A DNA stretch of 62,968 bases. It comes from Pseudomonadota bacterium (lineage in GTDB: Bacteria; Myxococcota_A; Bradymonadia; UBA4248). How positions within the stretch are numbered: the first letter of the stretch is position 1; every line of letters starts with the position of its first letter. Shown piece by piece: positions 3,234 through 55,175 of the stretch. The stretch covers positions 1-62,968 of the forward strand of contig JAFRYG010000047.1 in assembly GCA_017441205.1 (NCBI GenBank), read 5' to 3'. Position numbers and translations under genes: made by a program. Under the pieces are notes generated by a model that was given only the letters and a program-made list of their open reading frames with translations, was not told the DNA's origin and ran no database searches.

Positions 3234-5432
3234 ATGGATACTTCTTTCGAACCTGATTCATCCATCTATCCGAATGGCACACTCATCGCGGATCGCTACG
3301 AGATCACCTCGTTTCTTGCACAGGGTGGCATGGCACAGGTCTATATTGCGAGTCAGCAGCTCGTCGGAAATATCCACCGGGAGGTTGCACTCAAAATTCT
3401 CTTGCCGGCGTTCTCATTGAATCCGGACATCGTCATGCGCTTCTTCTACGAAGCCAAAGCCATCATCAGACTCAATCACCCCAACACCATTAAGCTTTAT
3501 GATATGGGTGAAACCCCTGACCATCGTCTGTTTCTGGCAATGGAATTGCTCAAGGGCAAAGAACTCAGCGAGCGCATAAAGGACGAAAAACACCCGATTT
3601 CCCCTGAAGAGGCATTTTCCATTGCAAAGCAGGTCGCAGGAAGTCTTGCAGAAGCCCATCAGTACGGCATCATCCATCGTGATCTGAAACCAGATAATAT
3701 TTTCATCACCGATCTGAACGTCGTCAAAGTCCTTGATTTCGGCATTGCAAAGCTCAAAGATGACAGTGAACAGTCACGCATTGAAAAAAAACTGACCAAA
3801 GCCGGAACAGCCCCGGGTACTCCCGAATACATGAGTCCGGAACAGGCTCGCGGAAAGGAGCTCGACGCCCGCAGCGATCTCTATTCCCTCGGAGTCGTCA
3901 TCTACGAAATGCTCTGCAAGCATCCCCCGTTCGAAGAACCGACGTCTCTCGGGACAATTCTGATGCACGTACAGGCGCCGCCTCCCCCGCTTCCCGATTA
4001 CATCCCCAAACCCATGCGGGATTTCGTCATTAAGCGCCTGCTGGCAAAGAATCCAAATGATCGTCCCAAAGACGCGCAGGCTTTTATTAACGAAGTCGAT
4101 GAACTTTTGCGCCCCACCGACCAGTTATACAAAGCACAGGCCGAAATTGAGCTGCTGCGAAACGAGCTCGCCCAAACCAAGCTGGAACTTCTGCGTTCCA
4201 GCGATATGAGTGTCATTGTGGATGATCAGCCCTATATCCAGACACCCATGCCGAGCAGGGTTCCTTTAAAATCCGGAGATATGGTCTGTGTCAATACCGC
4301 AGACAATTCCATCGCCATCAGACAATATCCGGATGCCGCTTTTGCACAGAACTCATCACATTACCAACAGGATCCGCATGGACAAACCAATCCCGGTTTT
4401 ACCCATCAGCCTCCGGGAATGCCAGGATATCCTGTAAATACCTCCAGACAAAGGGGTAATCCTCAACCCCCAAGGACATCACAGTATAATCCTCCCCCCA
4501 GCAGGCAGAACTATTCATCACAGCTGCCCATGCCGCAGCCCACTTCTTCCGGTGAAATGCAGAGCGTCCCCATGCCCCAGCATCGCATGCGGTCCATGCC
4601 AAATATGCCATCCAGTGAGATGCCGCCCGTTCCACCGAAGCGCATGCATCCAATGACAGGGATGCCATCGTCTGAAATGCCCTGCGTCCCACCGCAGCGC
4701 ATGCGGTCCATGCCAAACATGCCATCATCCAGTGAGATGCCGTCCGTCCCGCCAACAGCAGCGCAGCAGCGCATGCGTCCAATGCCAGGCATACCATCCG
4801 GCGAAATGCCTTGTGTTCCTTCCACACAACAGCAGCGCATGCGGTCTATGCCAAACACGCCATCCAGTGAAATGCCGCATGTTCCCCCCGCTGCACTGCA
4901 GCAGCGAATGCAGCACACGGGAACATTCAATTCCCCAAACAATTACCAGGCCGATGCCAACGAGGATCCCATCGTTCCACCGGCACCGAGAAGATCAGCT
5001 CACACCAGCAAATCCATGGCTCAAATGCCCGGCCTTCCTCACAATATCAGCGAAGACTATTCCATGGATCATGCCAGCGCCGCAAGCCGTCCCAAAGATA
5101 CCATCACGGGTACAGCGTCCAGAAATCCAACGTCCGGCATCGATCGGGAAACGACGTTTATGATGTTTGCACAGCCCATGGTCAACAAGCTCGGACAAGC
5201 CAATACCCCGGAAATACTCAATCTTGCCAAAAGCATCTGGAATGCCGCCATTATGGGTCCTGATGCTCTCGCTGCGCTTATGGAATCCGCAAAGCCAAAA
5301 TCCAATCTGAGAACCCTGATTGAATTGATGGTTGGCAGAAAATTGAAGTATTTTGCAGGAGAATCGTGGATAATCAATGAATTGGGAGCGAGCCTCGACA
5401 AAAATGGAAAATTATCGCTGCGCATAAGATAA
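3234..5432 (+). CDS. Cytosolic Hanks-type Ser/Thr protein kinase with Pro/Met-rich repeats
   Basis: The 732-residue kinase has a complete catalytic domain at about 20-290: the Gly loop ([10 protein letters not shown]), Lys54 in VALK, the HRDLKPDN catalytic loop (Asp150), DFG (Asp168), and [10 protein letters not shown] in the activation segment, so it should be active. There is no membrane span, unlike PknB-type kinases. After the kinase comes a Gln/Pro-rich linker, then five imperfect repeats with [14 protein letters not shown]-like units, then a C-terminal conserved-looking helical domain of about 90 residues (from about 640) that I do not recognise. A short coiled coil (about 295-325) directly follows the kinase. 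The SD signal is weak (AGAGA). It is probably transcribed separately from the phosphatase operon because of the intervening terminator, but the two are neighbours and could share substrates. Confidence 0.93.
4584..4904 (+). repeat. Imperfect 57-72-base in-frame repeats in the kinase gene
   Basis: Five units, each beginning CGCATGCG or CGCATGC, are 57, 57, 72, 66 and 69 bases long. They encode variants of [18 protein letters not shown] followed by 0-5 extra Ala/Gln/Pro residues. The length differences are all multiples of three. Confidence 0.85.
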
Positions 5433-6590: not shown

Positions 6591-8837
6591 ATGAGTAAAC
6601 GCTTCTCCCAGTTCGCATTGGCTGCTCTGTTGTGCGCATTTGGTACCGGCATGTTCGGATGTGTCGACGCAGATGAACTCCCCACCAAACCCAATCAGCC
6701 TGGCATCCAGCTGGAGACACATGTTAAGGATTGGCGCGACGAAGTCATCTATCAGCTCATCGTCGATCGCTTCAATAATGGCGACATCAACAATGACTTC
6801 AACGTCGATACACGTTCGCTGGGGCGCTATCACGGCGGCGACTGGCAGGGCATCATCGATAAACTCGATTACCTCCAGGAACTGGGCGTCACGACGCTCT
6901 GGATCTCACCTCCCGTCAAAAATGTCGAAGAAGATGCCGGATTCGCTTCGTATCACGGCTACTGGACTGTCGATTTCCTCAAACATAATCCTCACTTCGG
7001 CGATCTCGCCACACTGCGCCGCCTCTCGGATGAACTCCACAAACGCGGCATGAAACTCATCCTCGATATCGTCACCAATCACGTCGGACAGGTCTTCTTC
7101 TACGATATCAATATGAACGGAAGTCCCCAGGAATGGCTCGCCGGCCGCGGCGATATCGACAAAGGCGATTCCAAACGTCCGCAAGGCGGCGAGCTGAGCC
7201 GCGTCACAGAATACGATCCCGATTTCTCGGCACACGGCATCGACGCCTATACCTCCATGGGTATCTCCGGACAGGCCCCCATCGTATTTTTCGATCTCCC
7301 CGGCATCAACAGAACGGCCCCGGGACCCACCAATATCGACCTCGACGGCGACGGTGAAATCACTACACCCGCTGAAAAACTCGGTTTCAGCAACCCCAAC
7401 TGGTATCACCAGAAAGGCCGTACCTTCGACTACGATACACAGCTCGCATACGATTACAACTCCAGAGGTTATTCTTTCGCACCCATCTACAGCGCCGAAA
7501 GCTACAAAGCCGGTGCAGGACGGTGCCGCGAATTCGTCCTCGAGAATCCCATCCTCGAAAGATGCCGCGGTACGCTGGGCATCTGCGGCGGCGGTGACGG
7601 TGAGCAGAATGGCAGCTGCGAAGTCTGCACTGACCCGTGGTCGCCATGCACAACCGCAAATGAATGCTGCGAACTTAAAAAACTTTCCGGACCCTATACC
7701 CACCGCCTGACCAATTATGACGGTTCCGCCGGTGCCTTCCTCGACGGCGAGGAACGACAGTATTACCAGAACGATCAGACCCTCCTCGGTGACTTCCCCG
7801 GCGGACTCAAAGACGTCGCCACCGAACGCGATGACGTTCGCAAAGCCATGGTCCAGGTATTCTCCTACTGGATCGATGTAACGGACTGCGACGGCTTCCG
7901 AATCGACACGCTCAAACACGTCGAATATTCCTTCTGGGAATACTTTGCCCCTGCCATCCGCAAACACGCTGCAGCACGCGGCAAAAAGAACTTCCTCATG
8001 TTCGGCGAGGCCTTCGATGGCAACGACGATCTGCTCGCCGCTTATACGACAAACGAAAATTCCGTCGACTCGGTCTTCCTGTTCTCACAGAAATATGCCA
8101 TTGACCAGGCTTTCCAGTGCGCTCCGGGCAACACTGTCGCCTCCTGCGGCGGCGCGTCCAACGATACACACTCGCTCTATGGCTGGAACGTCGGCGAAAG
8201 CCGTCACGACAAATTCAGCAACACACCGCGTCCAAACGGCGTTATCGATGCCTCCGGAAACGGCGTCCCACCGCGCGACCTGCTCGTCAACTTCCTCGAT
8301 AACCACGACGTCAACAGGTACCTCTACAACCGCCGCGATGATAAAGGCGTTGATTCCCTCAAAAACGCACTCGCATTCCTCATCATGCAGCGCGGTATCC
8401 CATGCATTTATTACGGAACAGAACAGGGCTTCTTCGGCGGCAATGACCCCGGAAACCGCGAAAATATGAGCGATCCAACGGCCTCCATCTTCTACAGCCT
8501 CCAAAAATCGCTCTACCCGGATTACAAACCATGGGATACGGGTAACCCCCTGTTCAAACACATCAAAAAACTCATCCAGCTGCGCAAAAGCAACCCAGTT
8601 CTCAGCCATGGCGCAGTCTCGAACGTCAAGGCCGAAAACAGCATCTTCGCCTTTACGCGCACACTCGATGGTACAACAGCCGTCATCGTCGTCAACACGC
8701 ACGAAACCCAGAGCGCATCTTACAGTGATGCCGCCGTCTCGGGCAAATCCGACCAGCTCAGCATGTCTGCTGATGCCTGCCAGGTCAACGGAACCTCCGT
8801 CACCGTTCCTCCGATGACCACCTGCGTTCTGTTGTAA
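6591..8837 (+). CDS. GH13 alpha-amylase-family lipoprotein
   Basis: The 748-residue enzyme is a glycoside hydrolase of family 13, acting on alpha-glucans outside the cytoplasm. The signal peptide ends in a lipobox (MFGC, Cys24), so it should be lipid-anchored. The four conserved GH13 regions are present: DIVTNH (159-164), GFRIDTLKH with nucleophile Asp439, FGEAF with acid/base Glu473, and FLDNHD with Asp573. A C-terminal beta domain (about 650-748) follows the barrel. It is longer than typical amylases (about 450-600) because of insertions between regions I and II, including a Cys-rich stretch at about 310-367 with ten or more cysteines (CREF..., CGGGDG, CEVC, CCELKK). The ATG has an AGGA box. 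No sugar transporter or regulator lies nearby, so the product's fate is unclear. Confidence 0.92.
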   Translation: MSKRFSQFALAALLCAFGTGMFGCVDADELPTKPNQPGIQLETHVKDWRDEVIYQLIVDRFNNGDINNDFNVDTRSLGRYHGGDWQGIIDKLDYLQELGVTTLWISPPVKNVEEDAGFASYHGYWTVDFLKHNPHFGDLATLRRLSDELHKRGMKLILDIVTNHVGQVFFYDINMNGSPQEWLAGRGDIDKGDSKRPQGGELSRVTEYDPDFSAHGIDAYTSMGISGQAPIVFFDLPGINRTAPGPTNIDLDGDGEITTPAEKLGFSNPNWYHQKGRTFDYDTQLAYDYNSRGYSFAPIYSAESYKAGAGRCREFVLENPILERCRGTLGICGGGDGEQNGSCEVCTDPWSPCTTANECCELKKLSGPYTHRLTNYDGSAGAFLDGEERQYYQNDQTLLGDFPGGLKDVATERDDVRKAMVQVFSYWIDVTDCDGFRIDTLKHVEYSFWEYFAPAIRKHAAARGKKNFLMFGEAFDGNDDLLAAYTTNENSVDSVFLFSQKYAIDQAFQCAPGNTVASCGGASNDTHSLYGWNVGESRHDKFSNTPRPNGVIDASGNGVPPRDLLVNFLDNHDVNRYLYNRRDDKGVDSLKNALAFLIMQRGIPCIYYGTEQGFFGGNDPGNRENMSDPTASIFYSLQKSLYPDYKPWDTGNPLFKHIKKLIQLRKSNPVLSHGAVSNVKAENSIFAFTRTLDGTTAVIVVNTHETQSASYSDAAVSGKSDQLSMSADACQVNGTSVTVPPMTTCVLL

Positions 8838-8870
8838 TCTTTTTTCATTTCTTCGCCCTGCTGTCGCCTT

Positions 8871-8977
8871 GCGGCGATACGCCGGGCGCATCGCTGCTAT
8901 GGCAAAAGCGTTCATCCAAACGCTTTTGCCATACGCTGCTTCAGCCGGGCTATCTGCGATACGCCCGGCTTTTTTTT
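8871..8977 (+). repeat. Cluster of three nested bulged palindromes ending in a terminator
   Basis: Three hairpins follow the GH13 gene. The first is a GCGAT/ATCGC stem at 8874-8895. The second is a 12-bp stem (8901-8912 with 8919-8930) extended by TAT/ATA and then interrupted by a single extra C at 8934. The third is AGCCGGGC + TATC / GATA + extra C (8962) + GCCCGGCT (8943-8970), followed by a run of T that makes it a rho-independent terminator. The GC-TA...TA-C-GC flank with one bulged C is the signature of a repeat family seen throughout the window. Confidence 0.85.
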
Positions 8978-11868: not shown

Positions 11869-11950
11869 GGCCGACCGTATGATGCATCATAGGGCGGCCA
11901 GGCGAGTGTATTTTGCCCCGGCCAATAGCAGGGGCAAAATAACGAGCATA
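11869..11950. repeat. Bulged palindrome plus TATTTTGCCCC hairpin
   Basis: GGCCGACC + bulged G (11877) + the perfect palindrome TATGATGCATCATA + GGGCGGCC, then a GGCGAGTG word and an 11-bp stem TATTTTGCCCC/GGGGCAAAATA (11909-11919 with 11931-11941). It is nearly identical to 15576-15655. Confidence 0.85.
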
Positions 11951-15575: not shown

Positions 15576-15655
15576 GGCCGCCCGTATGATGCATCATAGG
15601 GCGGCCAGGCGAGTGTATTTTGCCCCGGCCGGCAGCAGGGGCAAAATAACGAGCA
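15576..15655. repeat. Bulged palindrome plus TATTTTGCCCC hairpin (second copy)
   Basis: GGCCGCCC + bulged G (15584) + TATGATGCATCATA + GGGCGGCC forms a perfect stem with a single extra base. A GGCGAGTG word and an 11-bp TATTTTGCCCC/GGGGCAAAATA stem follow (15616-15626 with 15638-15648). On the minus strand the first stem runs into a T tract and could end transcription coming from the LysM gene. Confidence 0.85.
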
Positions 15656-15662
15656 TATTCCC

Positions 15663-16088
15663 CAATGCTCTGTTCCATGAGTATGGCTATTATTATTTTT
15701 GTTGCAATGATTGCGATGGCTATATTCAGCACTCATCACAATAAGTACGCCGCCATGGACGGCGGCGAGAGGCGAGGGAGGCATGTCCAGGGATGGACAT
15801 TCGACCCGCAACAACGATAACCAAAAGAAGCGTGCGGGGGGCCGAGATGAGTACCGTTCGGTGAACGGTGCGAATCGCAGAGCCCAGTGAACAACGGCCA
15901 ATCATGAGCCGATTGCCGACAGGCAAAGGAGGCGATATGAGTGGCCCATTGTGAACTGTGTAGGGGGTGTTCACAATCGAACACCCCCTGCCGCGTAAGC
16001 GTACAAAAAAAACAAGCATCCGCGCTGCAAAGCGCGAACAACTCTGTATACCAATAGGTGTGGCTATGTTAGGGGGAGAACGCCAAAA
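15663..16088. other. Structured non-coding interval
   Basis: This 426-base stretch has no supported gene but is dense in hairpins: GCCGCC/GGCGGC near 15749-15766, ATGTCC/GGACAT (15783-15800), ACCGTT/AACGGT (15853-15869), TTGCC/GGCAA near 15914-15927, a strong 11-bp stem at 15962-15989, and GCGCT/AGCGC near 16023-16035. Words such as GGCGAG, GAGATGAGT and GATATGAGT precede several hairpins. A 47-codon frame at 15677-15820 encodes a short hydrophobic peptide but lacks an SD. Confidence 0.55.
15948..15989 (+). promoter_or_regulatory. Two mutually exclusive hairpins
   Basis: ATTGTGAAC (15948-15956) can pair with GTTCACAAT (15969-15977). Part of the latter also forms the 3' side of the left arm AGGGGGTGTTC (15962-15972), which pairs with GAACACCCCCT (15979-15989). 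The two stems cannot coexist, as in an attenuator or RNA switch. No T run follows directly and no plus-strand gene is downstream, so the role is open. Confidence 0.4.
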
Positions 16089-18498: not shown

Positions 18499-18520
18499 TT
18501 AACTGCTTTTTTTGGGGGAT

Positions 18521-18600
18521 GTGGCCTTTTGCCTGCGGCAATACGGCCACCTGGCGCGGTTCTATTGGGGTGCCCCCAATACGCCCCGCGCTTTTATTTT
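18521..18600. repeat. Two bulged palindromes in tandem
   Basis: The first is GTGGCC + TTTTGCC / GGCAATA + extra C (18544) + GGCCAC. The second is GCGCGG (18554-18559) + TATTGGGG / CCCCAATA + extra C (18582) + GCC + CCGCGC, followed by a T-rich stretch. Both show the same bulged-C signature as 8943-8970 and 52566-52641. Confidence 0.8.
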
Positions 18601-19583: not shown

Positions 19584-21706
<2,123 letters not shown>

Positions 21707-27020: not shown

Positions 27021-27116
27021 GATTCAGCCCCAATTCGAGAAATAAAATTCTGCAAACGCAGATAAAATTCGTCTTACTTTACACGCTTGCGAGGCATTTT
27101 CGCAAGAATTGAAAAA

Positions 27117-36392: not shown

Positions 36393-36762
36393 CGAATAAC
36401 TCCTTTTTTACAGGTTTGAACCTTGCAAACCCCTCCATCCTTTTCATACCATAAACCGCCCGCTAAAGGCTATTTATGGATGTCCCCATGCCATTGCATT
36501 TTTTGGGCCTTTTTGGACATGCTATGCCGGACGGCGCACGCGTGCCCCATCCGGCATACGCATGCCCCCGGCGCTATGGCTTTGCCATACGCGCCTTTTG
36601 CTTATTTATTCATCCGCACAGTCGCACGAATCCCCACATCGATCACGCCTGACATGCTCTGCATCATTTACCTTATCAACCCCGCCAGTCAGAGCCGCAA
36701 AATTGGGACACTTTCTGCGTCTCCCAAAGCCCTTGCGTACATGACATATTCCCCGGGTTATC
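36393..36762. other. Intergenic region with bulged palindromes
   Basis: This 370-base gap between two minus-strand genes holds the leader of the SUMF1-like gene, two bulged palindromes at 36519-36599 and otherwise nothing I can identify. Confidence 0.7.
36519..36599. repeat. Two bulged palindromes in tandem
   Basis: The first is ATGC + TATGCCGGA (36523-36531) / TCCGGCATA (36550-36558) + extra C (36559) + GCAT, with a second CACG/CGTG palindrome in its loop. The second is GGCGC + TATGGC TTT GCCATA + extra C (36590) + GCGCC followed by TTTT. The T tail points to the plus strand, where there is no upstream gene to terminate. Confidence 0.88.
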
Positions 36763-37956: not shown

Positions 37957-38063
37957 AGAATCCTCTTTGATAAAGATGGCGATGATTGTGAATCAAAAAA
38001 TGATAAGGCTCTGTTATATAAATGTGGATATTTTGTTCGCGAATATTTGCAATTCTGAGCCTG

Positions 38064-38084
38064 GAGCTCAAAGCTCAAAGTTCA
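38064..38084. repeat. Heptamer repeat (AAGCTCA), three units
   Basis: GAGCTCA, AAGCTCA and AAGTTCA in tandem, between two minus-strand genes. The same word recurs at 62859-62886 and at the right end of the window. Confidence 0.75.
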
Positions 38085-38155
38085 GAACAATGAAAGACAT
38101 ATTCTTTGGAACATTGCATATCCACAATAGTTAAACATTGCCTGTTATAATAATA

Positions 38156-40813: not shown

Positions 40814-40843
40814 AGCGGTTACTACTCAACCGCTTTTTTTTTA
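40814..40843. terminator. Hairpin with T run
   Basis: AGCGGTT (40814-40820) pairs with AACCGCT (40828-40834) and is followed by nine T on the plus strand. On the minus strand the same stem, followed by TGAGATAGATTTTTT, could terminate the DUF3592-like gene at 40969-41448. The remainder of 40712-40968 holds no gene. Confidence 0.65.
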
Positions 40844-40968
40844 ACAAACGGATTTGTTCGCATCTAACGATGCTCACATTTTTAGTGCGAATGTCAGCAG
40901 GTTTGCGGATGATGAAGCTGAGTTCAAAACAATTTCTTTAGAGAGATGGCGAAGGACTCCAATCGAGT

Positions 40969-41985: not shown

Positions 41986-42066
41986 GGTATCCTCTTTGTT
42001 TCTGAACCCATTCGGGTTATCGCAGGATCATTGTATATATTTTTTTGTTTTCCCCATACAAAAAAA

Positions 42067-42135
42067 ACGCCGCGTATTGCGAAGCAATAGCGGCGTTCCG
42101 GCGCAGCGTATCGGCCCACGGGCCGATAGCGCGCC
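42067..42135 (-). repeat. Two bulged palindromes; first T-tailed on the minus strand
   Basis: ACGCCGC + bulged G (42074) + TATTGC GAA GCAATA + GCGGCGT, preceded on the plus strand by seven A, hence a T tail on the minus strand. The second is GGCGC-A-GC + bulged G (42108) + TATCGGCCC / GGGCCGATA + GCGCGCC. Both follow the decayed gene at 42154-42525. Confidence 0.88.
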
Positions 42136-42153: not shown

Positions 42154-42525
42154 TTAATTCTTGTTTTCCGGCTTTTCGACGATCATGTCGAGGCAGCTGC
42201 AGGCATGCTCTTGGGAGCCCAGAGCGCATGGTCTGTCAATATCGTCCTACGTGCGCTCATGTATTTGACCCGCACATGGAGTGATCTGCTTACATGCTGT
42301 GCATTGAGTTGGCCCGCATTGGTGAACAGAACACATTCTGTCCACCCAGCCGTCGATTAGGGAGGCACACATCACTCGCTGCTCACCACAATGTTCCAGC
42401 GTGTCTTCTTCGCATTTGCCATTGAACACGTGTTTATTCGGTTCGCGTTGTCGATCCGCGCCATTTCCGGGATTTGTGTTATCCTCACTGGGAACCCACT
42501 GTTTTTTGTGTGTATGAAAGCTGAA
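42154..42525 (-). pseudogene. Decayed Cys-rich gene with an in-frame stop and an RpoC-like end
   Basis: Directly after the stop of the beta-barrel gene, in the same frame, the minus strand reads through about 92 codons with many cysteines (KCEEDTLEHCGEQ, MCSVHQCGPTQCTACKQ, TPCAGQ), then a single TAG at 42247-42249, then 30 more codons ending at TAA (42154-42156). The spacing of cysteines is like that of Cys-rich lipoproteins elsewhere in the window. There is no SD or start. The last part, HACSCLDMIVEKPENKN, resembles the RpoC C-terminus ([15 protein letters not shown]), with 35 of 37 bases identical between about 42174-42210 and 43822-43858. It is most likely a remnant, possibly of a recombined gene. 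Confidence 0.65.
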
Positions 42526-43146
42526 TTATAATTTAAACATCATACGAAATAGTATATTGATATAACCTTGCTGTTTTCCTGCACCATAATTATCAACCAT
42601 TTCATGTGTCTGCAATACGCTCAAATCATAATCGAGATCCAAACCAAGCCCAATCCAGTCATTGACATAAAATGTTGTTCCCAAACCGAATCGCATACCG
42701 AAATCGACATTCCTATGGCTCGTCGGAAAAATAACACCTGCACCAACTTTTGCATATAGATCAAACCTATCACTTGAATATGCATAAAATTTAGGAGCAA
42801 TAAATGCAGACATACCAAGAAATTCAGGATCAGGCTCACCTCTATTGCTCGTATCGCAATCACACTGAAGCAAGATTATTCGGAAGGAAGCTTCAAAATT
42901 CAGTAATGACAACCACTTATTCATTCTATGACCAAAACCCACATTTAAATTAAGGCCACTAAATTCATTTGTTTTCTTATGCTCACCTCCTATCGATTCA
43001 CCAACATATCCTACTCCTACATCCAATTCCCAGTCTTCTGCATACGCTTTCTGTGAAGTACCACAAACAATACTGCCTGTCAGAAACATGAAGATTATCA
43101 TGGTTAATACTTTTGTTAATATACAATCACAGAGTGCGTTTTTCAT
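42526..43146 (-). CDS. Small outer-membrane beta-barrel protein
   Basis: The 206-residue product starts at the ATG seven bases after AAGGA (the frame is open up to 43209). The signal peptide is residues 1-35, ending KAYA before EDWELD. The mature 170 residues alternate as in 8-stranded OmpX/OmpW-like barrels (WELDVGVGYVGES, GLNLNVGFGHRMNKWLSLL, FDLYAKVGAGVIFP, WIGLGLDLDYDLS, GYINILFRMMFKL). A CDCD pair in one loop is unusual. It is separated by 660 bases from rpoC's end. Confidence 0.78.
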   Translation of the reverse strand: MKNALCDCILTKVLTMIIFMFLTGSIVCGTSQKAYAEDWELDVGVGYVGESIGGEHKKTNEFSGLNLNVGFGHRMNKWLSLLNFEASFRIILLQCDCDTSNRGEPDPEFLGMSAFIAPKFYAYSSDRFDLYAKVGAGVIFPTSHRNVDFGMRFGLGTTFYVNDWIGLGLDLDYDLSVLQTHEMVDNYGAGKQQGYINILFRMMFKL

Positions 43147-43808
43147 AGTACATTCCTTTATAAAAACCAGTGAATACTCATCGCTGCCGCAGCGAAGTAC
43201 CCATGACATAAATCGAGAGGCTTTGTGGTGCCAAACAATTGGCAGGAACGTATTAGAGCATAGACTGTGCCAAAAGAAATCACCTCTTCTTTTTTTATCT
43301 ATACATCAATAATAACGATGAATTCTTTACCAATATTCCTGCGATTATCGCCATGAGCATGATTTTTATGGTTAAAGCATGCGTCAAAGGAACAAGCTAT
43401 CGCACTTAAATCTTCAAGTTTTTCTGTTTTATCCCTTTAGGGTGACTCTATTAGTGGATTATCGTTTTCCCAGGGGTTTCGCCAACTTTGAGCTCATCCC
43501 TCTATTACGGCGTAAGTCGTGACAGCTTCGGCTTCTTCACAAAATGTGAGAAGGTACTTTTAAAATTGACGCATTGCGCCGTGATTTGGGCTGGAATACT
43601 ATCGTTTATTAAGGGCGATAAACATCGATAAATGTGGAAGTATTTTTATCCATTTGTCATTATTTTGGACAATGGTAGTTTTTTATCCATTTATTTTTAT
43701 ATTGGATAATAGATCCGATCCCCCATCCCCCTTCCCCAAGGGGCAGGTGGCTTAAACAAAACGGGCGACCCATATAGGGTCGCCCGTTGAATCATCAAAA
43801 CCTAAAGG
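43147..43808. other. Intergenic region downstream of rpoC
   Basis: Apart from the rpoC terminator and the leader of the beta-barrel gene I see only short features: a CTTC-T-TCACA/TGTGAGAAG hairpin near 43530-43552 and two TATCCATTT words opposite an ATTGGATA (43647-43705). No gene or RNA family is recognised. Confidence 0.5.
43755..43788 (-). terminator. rpoC terminator
   Basis: A perfect 12-bp stem, AACGGGCGACCC with GGGTCGCCCGTT (43760-43771 and 43777-43788), closes a five-base loop. On the minus strand it runs into TTGTTT. It lies 20 bases after the rpoC stop. Confidence 0.92.
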
Positions 43809-47924
<4,116 letters not shown>

Positions 47925-48109: not shown

Positions 48110-51100
48110 TTAACGCGGTGCTTCTTCGAGAAGTTCGATGTCGAGGCAGAGAGACTGGAGCTCTTTGATGAGAACGTTGAACGACTCTGGGAGACCGGCT
48201 TCGAGCGCGAAGTCACCTTTGACGATGGACTCATACATACGCGTACGACCGAGGACGTCGTCGGATTTGACCGTGAGGAATTCCTGCAATGAGTAGGCAG
48301 CACCATAGGCCATCATTGCCCAGACTTCCATTTCGCCGAGACGCTGACCACCGAACTGCGTCTTACCACCGAGCGGCTGCTGCGTAACGAGGCTGTAGGG
48401 ACCAATCGAACGGGCGTGAATCTTTTCATCGACCAGGTGATGGAGTTTAAGCATGTACATGACGCCGACGGTCACGTCGTTGGCGAACGGATCGCCCGTG
48501 CGGCCATCGAACAGCGTCGATTTGGCGCTCAAATCGAGTCCTGCATTTTCGAGCAAATCGTGGATATCGGTTTCCTTGGCGCCATCGAATACCGGCGTCG
48601 CAACGTGAATACCGCGATTGCATTTCTTCGCGAACTCAATGACATCATCTTCGCTCAGGCTGTCGAGGAATTCGACCGTCTCGGGCTGCGGATAGGCTTT
48701 CTTAAGTTCTGCACGAAGCTTCTTGCACTGATCTTCGCGGGCAACCTGAAGCAGTGCATTGATCTTCTGGCCCATGCCGCGGGCGCCCCACCCCAGATGA
48801 ATTTCGAGGATCTGACCGATGTTCATACGGCTCGGTACGCCGAGCGGATTGAGCACGAAGTCGACCGGGGTACCATCTTCGAGGTAAGGCATATCCTCGA
48901 TCGGCAGAACATTACTGACGACGCCCTTGTTTCCGTGGCGGCCGGCCATCTTGTCACCGACCTGGATCTTGCGCTTAATCGCAACGCTGACCTTGACGAT
49001 CTTGATGACGCCGGGAGGAAGCTCATCGCCTTTTTCGAGCTTGGCGATTTTGTCATCGTAGTAAGCGCGTGCTTCTTCGCACTGCTGTTCCACGAGTTCC
49101 ATGATCTTGTCGATCTTTTCGGCAAGCGTGGCATCCTTAACCTGAATATTCGTCCACAGATGACGATCGATACCATCCATGATCTCATCGGTCAGAACGG
49201 TGCCCTTCGCAATCAGGGTATTTTTCTCTTCGTCGATGAGTTTTGCAGTCGTCGTCTGACCGACCAGGAATTCACGAATGCGCTGATAGCCGCCGTCGCG
49301 GATGATCTTGAGCTGAACATCCAGGGCCTTGGTCAGGCGTTCTTCTTCGACGCGATCGATTTCGCGCGAACGCTCATCGCTGTCTTCTTTCTTGCGGCTG
49401 AAGACCTTGGCATCGATGACGGTACCGACGAGCCCGGGCGGAACGCGCTGCGAGCTGTCGCGAACGTCGCCGGCCTTTTCACCGAAAATCGCGCGCAGAA
49501 GCTTTTCTTCCGGCGAAAGCTGCGTCTCGCCTTTCGGCGTGACCTTGCCGACCAGAATGTCGCCCGGCTTGATTTCCGCACCCACGCGAATGATACCGGA
49601 TTCATCCAGATCCTTGAGGGCTTCTTCACCGACGTTCGGAATGTCGCGCGTAATCTCTTCCTTGCCGAGCTTGGTATCGCGGGCAATGCACTCGAATTCC
49701 TCAATATGAATGGACGTGTACACGTCCTTGATGACCATTCTTTCGCTCAGCAGAATGGCGTCTTCGTAGTTGTAGCCGCACCACGGAACGAATGCGACGA
49801 CCACGTTCTTGCCGAGGGCAAGTTCACCGCAATCCGTCGAAGGACCATCGGCAATCACATCGCCGACGTTGACATGATCACCGACATTGACCGCAGGAAT
49901 CTGATTGAAGCAGGTGCCCTGGTTGGAACGGCGGTATTTGTAAAGATTATAGATATCGGGTTTGACGTTCAAACCGTTTTCATCGCGATCCGCACGAACG
50001 ACGATGCGCGACGCATCGACGCGTTCGACCGTACCGGCATGTTTCGCAAGGACGGCCACGCCGCTGTCGCGGGCAACCAGACGTTCCATGCCCGTTCCGA
50101 CCCACGGAGCTTCCGCAACCAAAAGGGGAACTGCCTGACGCTGCATGTTCGCGCCCATGAGGGCACGGTTGGCGTCGTCGTTTTCGAGGAAGGGAACGAG
50201 AGCCGCAGCAACCGAAACCATCTGGTTCGGGCTGACATCGATGTAATCGATATCTTCGGTGCGAACGACCGTCAGTTCGCCGTTCTGATGGCATTCGATC
50301 GTATCGCCGACGAGGCAGTTGTTCTCATCGATCGCAACGTTTGCCGGGCTGATATTGTGATCGTCTTCATCGAGTGCACTCAGGAAATCGACTTCATCGA
50401 GGATCTTGCGGTTCTCGACGCGGCGATACGGTGTCTCGATAAAGCCGTACTCATTGACGCGTGCAAACGTCGAAAGGGATGCGATCAGACCGATGTTCGG
50501 TCCTTCAGGCGTCTCGATCGGGCAGATTCGGCCATAGTGCGTGGGGTGAACGTCGCGGACTTCAAAGCCTGCGCGCTCACGCGTCAAACCGCCGGGGCCC
50601 AGTGCCGAAAGACGACGTTTATGCGTCAGCTCGCTGAGCGGGTTGGTCTGATCCATAAACTGCGACAACTGGCTCGAACCGAAATATTCACGGACGACAG
50701 CAACTACCGGCTTCGCATTGATGAGATCGTGCGGACGAACAACATCCGTCGCCTGATTCATCGTCATGCGTTCCTTGATCGCACGTTCCATGCGGGCAAG
50801 ACCATTGCGGTACTGATTCTCAAGGAGCTCGCCGACGGCGCGGACACGACGATTGCCCAAATGGTCGATATCGTCTGCCATTCCCTTGCCCTGGGCGAGG
50901 TCAATCAGATAACGCACGGTTTCGATGATGTCTTCTTTGGTCAGAACCGTCGTTTCAGTATTCAGTTTGAACTTGTGATTGAGCTTCAGACGGCCGACCT
51001 TCGACAGATCATAGCGTTCCGGATCAAAGAACAAACCATGGAAAAGCGCATCCGCCATTTCCTGAGTGGGAGGATCGCCGGGACGCGTGCGGGCATAAAT

Positions 51101-52222
51101 CTCAAGACGGGCATTTTCCGGGCTCGAGCATTTGTCCACTGCAAGCGTACGGCTCAACTGACGACCGACATTCAGGCCATCGTTGTCAAAATAGAGAACA
51201 TTGATTTCGTTGATGCCGCAGGCACCCAGTCTCTCGAGAATTTCCGGCGTGATCTGCTGGTTGCATTCCAGAATGACTTCGCCGGTCTCTTCATTATAGT
51301 AGTCCTCGGCTGCCACGCGGTCACACAGGGATTCCATGCTCATCGGAACATGCGTAATGCCTGCTGCGATCATCTTGCGGATCGAACCCGCATTGTATTT
51401 GCGCTTTTCGCGAACGATCACTTCGCCCGTCGTCGGATCGACAATATCAAAATCCGCACGCTGGTTCAGGAGATACTTGCGTTCGAGCGGACGATAGATA
51501 CCTGTTGCATCGACAGAAATCGTCTCGATATCGTAGTACATCTTGAGCAATTCTTCGGTGGAATAGCCAAGTGCACGAAGCAGAATCGTCGCATACATCT
51601 TGCGGCGGCGATCGATGCGAACACAGAGCATTTCTTTCGTGTCGAATTCAAAATCGACCCACGAACCACGGTAGGGAATGATTCGCGCCGAAAAACTCAG
51701 TTTTCCGGATGCCGAACTCGTACCGCCGTCATTGTCGAAAAATGCACCGGGACTGCGGTGCAGCTGGCTGACGACGACGCGCTCCGTGCCATTGATGATA
51801 AAGGTCCCTTCCGGCGTCATCAAAGGAATGGCGCCAAAATAAACCTGCTGCTCCTGAATGTCATGGATGCTGCGATTGCCGGCCTCATCCTTGTCAAACA
51901 CCGTCAGCCGAACATCGACCTTAACAGGTGCTTCATACGTCATCCCGCGGGAATGACATTCTTCAACATCATATTTCGACTCTTCAAGCGCATAACTCAC
52001 AAAATCCAGTTCGCTCGTCTCGTTGAAGTCGCGAATCGGGAAAATACTCCTGAACACGCCCTGAAGGCCTGTTTCCGTACGTTTCTCGGGCGGAACATCA
52101 GCCTGAAGGAACGCATCATAAGAGCGCCGCTGAATGTCGATCAAATTTGGCACATCCACAATGCATTTGCTCGTTGCATAGCTGCGGCGTGCCCTGAAGT
52201 TCGACTGAATCACAGATGCCAT
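48110..52222 (-). CDS. rpoB: DNA-directed RNA polymerase beta subunit
   Basis: The 1370-residue protein is full length. The rifampicin-pocket segment reads as in sensitive bacteria ([28 protein letters not shown]), and the downstream [16 protein letters not shown] and [12 protein letters not shown] motifs are intact. GGAG lies five bases before the ATG. The gene is not preceded by rplJ/rplL; a divergent lipoprotein gene starts 590 bases away. A short TGCGC/GCGCA hairpin (about 52283-52297) lies in its probable leader. Confidence 0.99.
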
Positions 52223-52811
52223 TTCATCTCCTCGAGTACAGGTCAGTAAAAATACGAATACTCTTGTATTAACGTGCTTTTGCGCGTGGTGCGCAGAATC
52301 CCGATGCGTTCAAGTCATATATGGTAAAGAATCGATTCGGGGTGAATTGTTTCATGCGCACAGACTCCATAAACGAATGCTGCCTCCATGCAGCTTCGCA
52401 AAACATACCCGCGCATTTTTTACGCAGGCTAAAGCCGAAAGAGGCTACACCTACACATCACACATTGTCAACCACATTTATCGTTTTTTTGATGCAGATT
52501 TTTTTCGTTTTCGCAACAAAAAAAATTAATTTTTTTAAATATTTTTTTAATTTTTTTATTTTTTTGCGGCCAGGCTAGTGCCGCCGGCACTACGCCCCGG
52601 CCGCCGTGCTATGGCGATGCCATACGCACGGCACTTTTTTTGGTGGGAATTCTCAGCCCACACTTCTCTGATGAAAAAATTCACTTACAGGCGTTCCGCA
52701 GAACATCTCCCCAATTACTTTCCATAACCGAATACTTCATTCTATAATCCAACCCGTGTTGCCCTCCCCGACGCACGAAGGCATGGAATCCCCATATTCA
52801 CCGGAGTTCTT
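52223..52811. other. Divergent promoter region of rpoB with repeats
   Basis: This 589-base gap between divergent genes must carry the promoters of rpoB and of the lipoprotein gene; I could not place a -35/-10 pair with confidence. It contains a small hairpin near 52283-52297, a T-rich stretch (52488-52565), two bulged palindromes (52566-52641) and a decayed GTACAGACG-type element near 52683-52715. Confidence 0.65.
52566..52641 (+). repeat. Two bulged palindromes in tandem
   Basis: First: GCGGCC-A-GGC + TAGTGCC GCC GGCACTA + extra C (52593) + GCC-CC-GGCCGC. Second, overlapping it by two bases: GCCGTGC + TATGGC GAT GCCATA + extra C (52625) + GCACGGC, then AC and seven T. These are the cleanest examples of the family. 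The T-tailed stem points at the lipoprotein gene, not away from one. Confidence 0.92.
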
Positions 52812-54578
52812 ATGAAATACGCAAATAAATCCCTTCTTATCCTCGCAATGGCAGGAATCATGTGCCTGACCGGATGCAAAAAAATAGCGGAAAGTCTCGA
52901 AGAAAAAGCCCCTCAGCTTTCACAGGCCCTCTCCGGAAAAAGCTGGGACAAATCCGAGGTCAACTCCCTGCTCACCTACGTTCCCGCCGATACGGCAGCA
53001 ATCTTCGCCACGACCAGACAGTTCGACTTCGACAATCCAACCATCAAAATGGTACTGTCAAAAGGATTGAAAAACTTCGACGCCACCCTTGATGAAGCCA
53101 AAAATCACCTCAAACAGCTGCCGCCCGACAGCAAGGATATGCCAAAATTAAAGGAGCTCATCGACACGCTCGAAGAAACCTATCGCCCCATGCTGGCTGA
53201 TTTTTCCAATGAATCCGTCAAGTGGGGATTCGATCCCAAACACATGGATTCCATCATCTATCTAAATGATACGACGCTTGTCGCCAAAGTCACCGTCGCT
53301 GACGGCAATAAACTCAAAGCCAAACTGACGGAATCCCTGAACGCCGTAAATCATCTGTTCGGAGCCCTGGCCAATAATAATGCCCCAAAGGTCGAACTCA
53401 AGGAAATCAAAGCCGGCGGCGAAACCTGGTCGGTTTACTCCACCGCCGCAGCCCTCGAAAAAGCTGCCGGCGAATGCATCGCATGCGAAAATGGAAAAAC
53501 CACGCTCCCGTCCGATATCGCCATTCATTTCGGAAAAGAAATCGTCACCATGGCTTTCGTTGTCCATGACGATACGGCCACGCTCGAAAAACTCCTCAAA
53601 CCGGCCGCAAATCCGCTCAATAAAAAGGATCTCGGAACAATATCGGATACGACGGCCTATATCGGTTACGTCAACAACGTCGCATTGTACAACCAGATTA
53701 CTCGCGGAAATGGCCTGAAATTTATCCAGGCCATGGGTTTGGAAACATCTCCGGAATGTATTGCCGAAATCGGTCAGATGGTTTCTGTCTTCCCCAAATT
53801 CAAGCATGAATCGCAGATCACGCCTTCCAATCACATTGTGTCCAGCAATACACTCATGATGAACGACAAGGAGGAGCTCAAAAAAATCAACGAACTCCAC
53901 ACTCAGGGCATGGATTTGATCAAAGACGGAACACTCGCCGGGCTCGGGCTGAATCTGAACATTCCCAAATTCATCGCCTATCTCCAGGAGATCGGCGATA
54001 AACTAAAGGCAAAATCATACAAATGCGAAGCCATCCGCGAGATTCCTTCGGCGATTGGCATGATGGCAGTATTTATGCTCAATCCCGAAATCAGCAAATA
54101 CACTTCGGCAATCACCGGTATCTCTGCCGCACTGACAAAACTCGATATCACCGGCGCAGAGCCTCAGATCGAAGCCGCCGTCCATCTGACGGGTCCCCAA
54201 ATTGCGGCTGCCATACAGGACGATAGCCTGCCGTTAAAACTCCTCATGGTTTCACCGTATGCCGCCAAAGCCGTTAAGAGCATCAAGAAAGGCGAAGTCT
54301 CTGAGATCGACCTCTCACCCACGCTCAATATGCCGCTCAAACTCAGTACCTATCTCAGCGATACAGACCTCGTTCTGGGAACTTCCAGCTTCGATGTTCA
54401 ATCGATTGCCAATCAATCCAAAGTTCAATCCGGGGATTTCCTGAGAATTGCCGTGGATACGAGCATCCTGGCCCTTGCAGGTCTGAATCTTCCGGTTAAT
54501 TTCACTCAGGAACTCATTGATACACACTTCGGCTCAAACGACGAAGGCTTCTTTTTTACTGCCGTTCTCAAACAATAG
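52812..54578 (+). CDS. Large lipoprotein, unknown function
   Basis: The 588-residue product has a signal peptide ending CLTGC (lipobox, Cys22). The mature protein opens with LLTYVPADTAAIFATTRQFD, a phrase like those at the start of DUF3352-type proteins that track a 'dose' of periplasmic substrate, and continues as a mixed alpha/beta protein with repeated TxAYIGYVNNVALYNQI-like strands. Two short cysteine pairs occur (GECIACENG; SPECIAE with YKCEA). GGAG precedes the ATG. It is divergent from rpoB and convergent with the small lipoprotein at 54676; a TGCAGCGC/GCGCTGCA hairpin without T run lies just after its stop (54588-54611). Confidence 0.82.
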   Translation: MKYANKSLLILAMAGIMCLTGCKKIAESLEEKAPQLSQALSGKSWDKSEVNSLLTYVPADTAAIFATTRQFDFDNPTIKMVLSKGLKNFDATLDEAKNHLKQLPPDSKDMPKLKELIDTLEETYRPMLADFSNESVKWGFDPKHMDSIIYLNDTTLVAKVTVADGNKLKAKLTESLNAVNHLFGALANNNAPKVELKEIKAGGETWSVYSTAAALEKAAGECIACENGKTTLPSDIAIHFGKEIVTMAFVVHDDTATLEKLLKPAANPLNKKDLGTISDTTAYIGYVNNVALYNQITRGNGLKFIQAMGLETSPECIAEIGQMVSVFPKFKHESQITPSNHIVSSNTLMMNDKEELKKINELHTQGMDLIKDGTLAGLGLNLNIPKFIAYLQEIGDKLKAKSYKCEAIREIPSAIGMMAVFMLNPEISKYTSAITGISAALTKLDITGAEPQIEAAVHLTGPQIAAAIQDDSLPLKLLMVSPYAAKAVKSIKKGEVSEIDLSPTLNMPLKLSTYLSDTDLVLGTSSFDVQSIANQSKVQSGDFLRIAVDTSILALAGLNLPVNFTQELIDTHFGSNDEGFFFTAVLKQ

Positions 54579-55101: not shown

Positions 55102-55175
55102 GCCGCGCGTATCCCATAGCGCGGCCAGGCGAGCCGTAGTGGCATCTCCGTGACATTCGGTCACGGGGATGTCAC
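55102..55175. repeat. Bulged palindrome plus GGCGAG-flanked hairpin
   Basis: GCCGCGC + bulged G (55109) + TAT CCC ATA + GCGCGGC, then CCAGGCGAG, then a 16-bp stem (55139-55154 with 55160-55175) whose only imperfections are two G-U wobbles, then AAGGCGAG. The stem is in the leader of rph. Confidence 0.82.

Follow-up and report, generated by a model that had tools for sequence, protein, structure and literature searches.

A lineage-specific family of dispersed bulged hairpins in gut Myxococcota, probably serving in part as intrinsic terminators

Related systems and the copies in the window

Intrinsic (Rho-independent) terminators, including the uptake-sequence ones, consist of a G+C-rich hairpin followed by a T run and lie just after stop codons. 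The REP/BIME and REPIN elements are short extragenic palindromes that number from hundreds to over a thousand per genome, occur at 3' ends and are often dimeric, the dimers being mostly head-to-head and rarely head-to-tail (PMC3733652). The REPs of E. coli carry a conserved stem irregularity with a bulged C that is contacted (PMC8266576). The double-hairpin or repetitive hairpin-forming elements of mitochondria are tandem, intergenic and suspected to be mobile, and their copy number differs between close species (PMC2800124).

The bulged hairpins analysed here resemble REP/BIME elements and REPINs in being high-copy, short, extragenic, situated at 3' ends and often dimeric. Unlike REPs, they carry no unpaired GTAG/CGTC tag, the 90 pairs profiled showing T-rich flanks instead; adjacent copies lie head-to-tail (91 of 93), the structure is fixed but leaves the sequence nearly free, T-tails are frequent and no RAYT accompanies them consistently. 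Membership of a REPtron, which calls for a Y1 transposase gene flanked by repeats, was considered and rejected. Since the tag, the dimer orientation and the transposase linkage of REPs were all lacking, the hairpins were not filed as REP. The mitochondrial double-hairpin elements are the closest formal analogue, differing from the present family in that the latter is bacterial, has an 8-bp arm with a single-C bulge and is put to use as a predicted terminator; there is no known relationship between the two. A subset of the copies is like intrinsic terminators in being G+C-rich, followed directly by a T run and placed just after stop codons, but an internal conserved bulged core, tandem pairing and many T-less or antisense copies set the family apart, as does the absence of the long fixed sequence of uptake-sequence terminators.

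The window, that is, the whole stretch of DNA analysed, is a 62,968-nt contig of a 4.36-Mb, 221-contig genome (G000) that is 94% complete. An initial annotation had listed 15 hairpins of one bulged design in it, and all 15 places were found to fold as hairpins or imperfect hairpins of that design. The copies are given below with their scores in R1, a covariance model of the hairpin family.

8854-8888, plus strand: first of three bulged hairpins, 16 nt past the stop codon of a gene with an alpha-amylase domain (6591-8837, Pfam); 25.2 bits; newly found
8890-8942, plus strand: second of three, with a long inner stem; 11.5 bits (weak)
8943-8970, plus strand: third of three, with a T8 tail, sense and terminator-like; 30.6 bits
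11869-11899, minus strand: bulged hairpin with T-tail, antisense to the neighbouring genes; 25.3 bits
11900-11949, minus strand: first hairpin of the pair with 11869-11899; newly found
15576-15606, minus strand: bulged hairpin with T-tail, between convergent genes; 28.0 bits
15607-15656, minus strand: first hairpin of the pair with 15576-15606; newly found
18519-18552, plus strand: first hairpin of a pair, starting TTT instead of TAT, antisense to the neighbouring genes; 24.4 bits
18555-18590, plus strand: second hairpin of the 18519 pair, with a T-rich tail; 20.1 bits
27115-27146, minus strand: second hairpin of a sense pair, with T-tail; 34.4 bits
27149-27191, minus strand: first hairpin of the 27115 pair, with a long inner stem; 17.8 bits
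36515-36567, plus strand: first hairpin of a pair, antisense to both neighbours; 23.2 bits; pair z = -6.9
36570-36595, plus strand: second hairpin of the 36515 pair, with T-tail; 25.1 bits
42066-42097, minus strand: second hairpin of a pair, with a T8 tail and with arms, AACGCCGC/GCGGCGTT, that match exactly those of the copy at the rpoC end in genomes G001 and G005; 40.9 bits
42100-42135, minus strand: first hairpin of the 42066 pair; 29.3 bits
52566-52604, plus strand: first hairpin of the focal pair, inner TAGTGCC, between the divergent rpoB (minus) and ORF 52812-54578 (plus)
52602-52633, plus strand: second hairpin of the focal pair, with a T7 tail; 37.6 bits
55101-55126, minus strand: short single bulged hairpin; 24.5 bits

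The three newly found hairpins had been missed by the initial annotation, its copy at 8898-8936 really spans about 8890-8942, that at 18521-18550 has the TTT start, and that at 55102-55125 has an inner stem of only 3 bp. Arms and stems had been said to differ completely between copies. The sequence is indeed very varied, but the pairs at 11869-11949 and 15576-15656 are 95% identical copies of one pair, so the copies are not all independent. The focal pair (52566-52633) sits between rpoB (48110-52222, minus strand) and the ORF at 52812, and the focal region 52566-52641 folds at -45.6 kcal/mol (z = -5.3 against dinucleotide shuffles). Strand or replication bias was examined, and the strand of the copies was found to alternate within the window.

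Other repeated sequences were seen beside the hairpins. A long T-rich tract occupies the plus strand at 52480-52565, upstream of rpoB, and is also found in G001, G002 and G003, where hairpins may or may not follow it. Two other repeats, each dispersed and about 150 bp long, lie at about 40817-40967 (many copies in G000 and G005) and about 38000-38144 (many in G000). Dispersed repeat blocks adjoin the hairpin at 15607-15656; the block at about 15690-16059 is 85-90% identical at loci L031, L035, L036, L038 and L046. Palindromes of a second type, in AGACGTTCCACGGAACGTCT and GTGTCACGACAC forms, were observed at L042:7465-7595, at L033 about 19780-19870 and in the window at about 18480; they are often interleaved with bulged hairpins and followed by CTAC-GCTCGC.

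Architecture, abundance and taxonomic range

The architecture of the copies was found to be one-sided, namely 5'-[8 bp]-TAT-stem-loop-stem-ATA-C-[8 bp]-3'. The initial annotation had described two mirror forms. Both were seen, but they represent one oriented core, the 'GC-G-TA' form being the reverse complement of the C-bulge form, so every copy has an orientation; GC beside TA is common without being fixed. The T-tails follow the C-bulge orientation, as in the minus-strand copies at 27115, 42066, 11869 and 15576. Alignment of 32 copies in one orientation (A1) revealed an invariant core, C-TAT ... ATA-C-G, and the closing pair of the outer arm was C-G in 316 of 332 copies. The loop is mostly 3 nt. 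Contiguous outer pairing stops sharply at 8 bp (68 copies at 8 bp, 9 at 9 bp and 1 longer), with a second peak at 3 bp formed by arms that have an additional mismatch or bulge. The reversed pattern, used as a control, was common in the window genome.

Conservation of pairing was evaluated in A1, where 96.2% of the pairing cells were paired against 23-44% with the partner slid. Both sides had changed in 10 of the 14 pairs, with 138 such cells against 45 expected by shuffling, a count whose outer-arm share is partly circular since the members of A1 had been chosen beforehand with at least 6 of 8 outer pairs. Because of this selection for pairing, a scan that required no letters was run (inner stem 5-9 bp, loop 3-5, exactly one unpaired base, outer stem at least 6 bp). 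It returned 134 single-base-bulged hairpins from 187 kb of intergenic DNA of the bacterial family, and 130 of them had the TAT...ATA core with the bulged C on the 3' side. The controls gave 1-2 hairpins in 1.0 Mb of coding DNA and 0-2 in five shuffles, none of the shuffled ones with the core, so that the excess over shuffled intergenic DNA is huge. This result is in accordance with the earlier claims of a structure conserved without conserved sequence and of a bulge kept in place beyond the listed copies. The hairpin family is defined almost purely by shape, that is, by the constant length of the arm, the core of 3 bp and the single bulged base, with very varied sequence.

The copies had also been said to come in pairs, and this was borne out. 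Since adjacent hairpins are in direct orientation and mostly 0-4 nt apart, the element typically occurs as a head-to-tail pair some 70 bp long. On either side the pairs are flanked by T-rich DNA, with the Ts on the same strand, the upstream peak lying 5 nt before the pair and the downstream one directly after it. Within pairs, the T-tail belongs to the last hairpin in about half of the cases and rarely to the first.

Abundance was analysed in 404 kb of the window genome, where 112-130 copies were counted against about 8 expected by chance in random sequence; by extrapolation the genome is estimated to hold about 1,200-1,400 copies. The genomes analysed are fragmented metagenome bins. Among 38 relatives, R1 gave at least 157-236 matches in each of the eight genomes of the same Myxococcota family (8/8), none in the only genome from a different family of that order, and 0-3 in members of the class. 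Among 284 genomes of the phylum, matches occurred only in the same eight genomes, apart from one single hit. The covariance scan thus revealed a genome-wide excess throughout the family and its absence outside, and the hairpins are restricted to one family of animal-gut Myxococcota. The relatives found by sequence pattern were gut metagenome genomes deposited as Myxococcales UBA4248 and as 'Proteobacteria' RGIG464, RGIG7731 and RGIG4413, together with one further bin, presumably from a termite gut as read from its isolate name; UBA4248 is placed in Myxococcota by the NCBI taxonomy. Single pattern matches outside the family, in Marinomonas, Verrucomicrobia, Acidobacteria and one Deltaproteobacteria contig were taken as chance, their 8-kb loci holding no strict bulged hairpins. 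No Rfam family matched the window at gathering score, and no description of a bulged-hairpin family was found in open-licence papers.

Gene ends, termination and turnover

The position of the arrays was surveyed against 860 genes, predicted by a purpose-written script, in 1.19 Mb of DNA from the family. Only 3 of 255 arrays lay inside genes, and the density per kb was 3.0 in convergent, 1.4 in co-directional and 0.6 in divergent gene gaps. The co-directional gaps held 77 sense and 55 antisense arrays, a weak orientation bias, and the sense arrays started at a median of 46 nt after the stop codon. Strong T-tails (at least six T in eight) were seen in 32 of the 77 sense arrays and in 10 of the 55 antisense ones; for convergent and divergent arrays the figures were 23 of 60 and 5 of 25. 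A G+C-rich hairpin with a T run, in sense and downstream of a gene, as expected of an intrinsic terminator, was therefore found for a subset of the arrays, and a clear T-tail was absent from over half. At the 130 gene ends with a strong T-tailed sense hairpin, 65 hairpins had the bulged core and 65 were plain; bulged hairpins are thus predicted to account for about one in two of the T-tailed terminator hairpins that can be recognised at gene ends. The initial remark that some copies work as terminators was, as a prediction, an understatement.

The last hairpin, if transcribed in the C-bulge direction and then through the Ts, would act as an intrinsic terminator, and RNA polymerase presumably terminates at the T-tailed sense copies. 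Copies without a T-tail or facing the other way would be at most 3'-end mRNA hairpins. Termination accounts for the T-tailed sense copies; it accounts neither for the antisense or T-less ones nor for the bulge, because half of the terminators have no bulge. Given the weak orientation bias and the many arrays without a clear T-tail, termination cannot be the only reason for the arrays.

Comparison of orthologous gene ends gave further insight. A T-tailed sense pair was present within about 100 nt of the rpoC stop in each of four relatives (G001, G002, G003 and G005), with different sequences. In the four distinct second hairpins, 4 of 12 pairs had changed on both sides and 97.9% of the cells were paired against 27-50% in slid versions. 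The corresponding pair of the window genome is 42066-42135. An outer-membrane beta-barrel gene (42526-43209) lies between it and rpoC, and just before the displaced pair, about 1.6 kb downstream of rpoC, 37 bp at 42172-42208 resemble the rpoC 3' end at 43821-43857 (94.6%, minus strand). Since the arms of its second hairpin are identical to those of G001 and G005 and the rpoC-like 37 bp precede the pair, this is apparently the ancestral rpoC-end pair, parted from rpoC by about 1.6 kb with the beta-barrel gene. An insertion appears to have taken place at the rpoC end of the window genome.

The ends of coaX carried copies in G000, G001, G003, G005 and G007 and none in G002, G004 and G006, and presence was similarly patchy at the ends of uppP and ddl. 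After uppP, G002 and G004 share the inner stems, and the outer arms differ yet are still complementary. Presence and sequence turn over quickly at orthologous gene ends. Pairs at unrelated sites could be 77-87% alike, the similarity stopping at the edges of the pair, and this likeness together with the patchy presence fits dispersal. The empty-site comparison had one usable case, the rpoB-rpoC spacer, where G003 has a composite element with one copy and G000, G001 and G002 have none; the flanks were too diverged to define the ends.

A composite element of some 100-200 bp consists of G-run and C-run hairpins around one bulged hairpin (GGGGG..CCCCCTGC-hairpin-TACCCCC..GCGGGGG..CCCCCGCAACGCCCC), its sites being about 76-82% alike. 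It was seen at L031 (about 8370-8480), L035 (about 220-310), L038 (about 170-260), L041, L046 and L150 (about 4780-4890). In L146 (G002:C266), on the reverse strand and past the orthologue of the gene at L042:10163-12060, a tandem array of about 20-bp units (GTTATGCATCAATCCCCGGC) occupies a site that in G004 bears bulged hairpins.

The foremost rival explanation is a purely lineage-specific style of terminator, in which RNA polymerase or an RNA-binding factor prefers a bulged stem, the copies have arisen by convergence, nothing moves, and the pairs are tandem fail-safe terminators. The share of the core among T-tailed gene-end hairpins, the compensatory changes in the sense T-tailed pairs at the rpoC ends of four relatives and the T-tail on the last rather than the first hairpin are all consistent with it. 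The 55 antisense arrays among 132 co-directional ones, most of them T-less, argue against it, as do the copies in divergent regions and between rpoB and rpoC. The core is moreover not needed for termination, as half of the terminators lack it, and between pairs at unrelated sites the shared sequence does not reach beyond the pair. This explanation was judged rather unlikely. Most likely the hairpins form a REP-like family of elements that is specific to the lineage and in wide use as intrinsic terminators.

Mobility, recognition and remaining alternatives

Signs of mobility were searched for in the family. Short direct repeats at the edges, as left by transposons or MITEs with target duplication, were not found: flanking 6-mers were shared in 57 of 248 cases against 45 (maximum 60) with shuffled pairing, with no consistent position; a first count had hinted at an excess, which fell within the shuffled range with cleaner flanks. 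The Y1_Tnp domain (PF01797) was found in only six of the eight family genomes, being absent from G002 and G003, both of which are full of hairpins, and no convincing family hairpin lay near Y1_Tnp in L136, L137, L138 and L140. A RAYT/Y1 transposase as obligatory partner was rejected, as it is missing from two genomes and not consistently flanked by hairpins. The family genomes yielded no clean empty site and no consistently linked mobilising enzyme. The copying of a mobile hairpin by some enzyme, as suggested earlier, is thus a possibility; the presence and absence of copies and the similar pairs fit dispersal, and the hairpins may be mobile.

The copies could alternatively be folded single-stranded DNA sites for an HUH-type or other single-strand enzyme, like REP/RAYT or IS200/IS605 ends, the bulge being a contact and termination a by-product. 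The TnpA-REP of E. coli needs the stem bulge and contacts the bulged C, and the IS608 transposase contacts an unpaired T (PMC8266576), thereby lending this explanation a precedent. The orientation tied only weakly to transcription also agrees with it, and so does the strand asymmetry of single outer-arm defects, with C.T far above A.G. Among copies with one defect, the mismatch on the C-bulge strand was C.T in 36 and A.C in 26 against A.G in 5 and G.U in 8. Repeated arm types such as GGCTCGC contribute to this asymmetry; with distinct outer arms only, the C.T/A.G asymmetry stays (32 to 5) and that of A.C/G.U is marginal (13 to 5, p = 0.10). The opposite-strand equivalents of C.T and A.C are G.A and G.T, which are the most stable mismatches, so the bulged-G strand may, tentatively, be the one that folds. 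The missing GTAG/CGTC-like unpaired tag and target duplication speak against such an enzyme, as does Y1_Tnp, which is absent from G002 and G003 and in several other genomes is not flanked by copies, and the explanation is considered improbable.

Neutral palindrome drift, in which template switching or hairpin repair keeps quasi-palindromes perfect without function, draws on the rarity of G.U pairs (2 of 448 cells in A1, and the 8 G.U against 26 A.C single defects), lower than an RNA-selected stem would tolerate, so that the palindrome looks maintained as DNA. It is largely refuted and very improbable, since repair would erase the bulge too, yet the copies have a fixed C bulge, TAT/ATA core and 8-bp arm, and the family occurs in one taxon only. 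A role as attC-like recombination sites in an integron-type system, for which the structural recognition of arrayed stem-loops with extrahelical bases is the analogy, is hardly credible, as no integron integrase (TIGR02249) exceeded the curated cut-off in any of the eight family genomes, the hairpins abut with no cassettes between them, and the aligned copies have no GTT/AAC core boxes. The bulged hairpins are neither REPs, nor the partner of a RAYT, nor attC sites, nor an Rfam family.

The explanation regarded as probable is a lineage-specific family of dispersed extragenic hairpin elements, usually doubled head-to-tail, whose T-tailed sense copies serve as terminators. Its unit would be one hairpin of about 26-60 nt, which combines the 8-bp outer arm and the invariant core C-TAT...ATA-(bulged C)-G with an inner stem that varies and a loop usually of 3 nt. 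Such units would settle in intergenic DNA, mostly just downstream of genes, and may spread by DNA copying. A C bulge fixed at 8 bp from the base is accounted for neither by termination nor by palindrome repair, and we therefore infer a dedicated protein that recognises the bulged core in folded DNA or RNA. It is proposed that a dispersed element whose folded core is read in this way explains shape, orientation, pairing and turnover together. A further, less probable reading is that the hairpins form a structure-coded mark, in which a dedicated factor of the family recognises the folded C-bulge core at its 8-bp distance, independently of sequence, and employs more than 1000 such sites in each genome, whether for spreading and rewriting the hairpins at the DNA level or for defining and processing the 3' ends of transcripts.

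The known bacterial palindrome families are defined by sequence, and the bulged hairpins are defined almost purely by shape. The family therefore offers a natural experiment on the spread of non-coding hairpins and on the origin and turnover of terminators, and raises the question whether a structure-specific nuclease, recombinase or RNA-binding protein stands behind it. With the covariance model and the comparison of rpoC ends, these questions can be tested directly.
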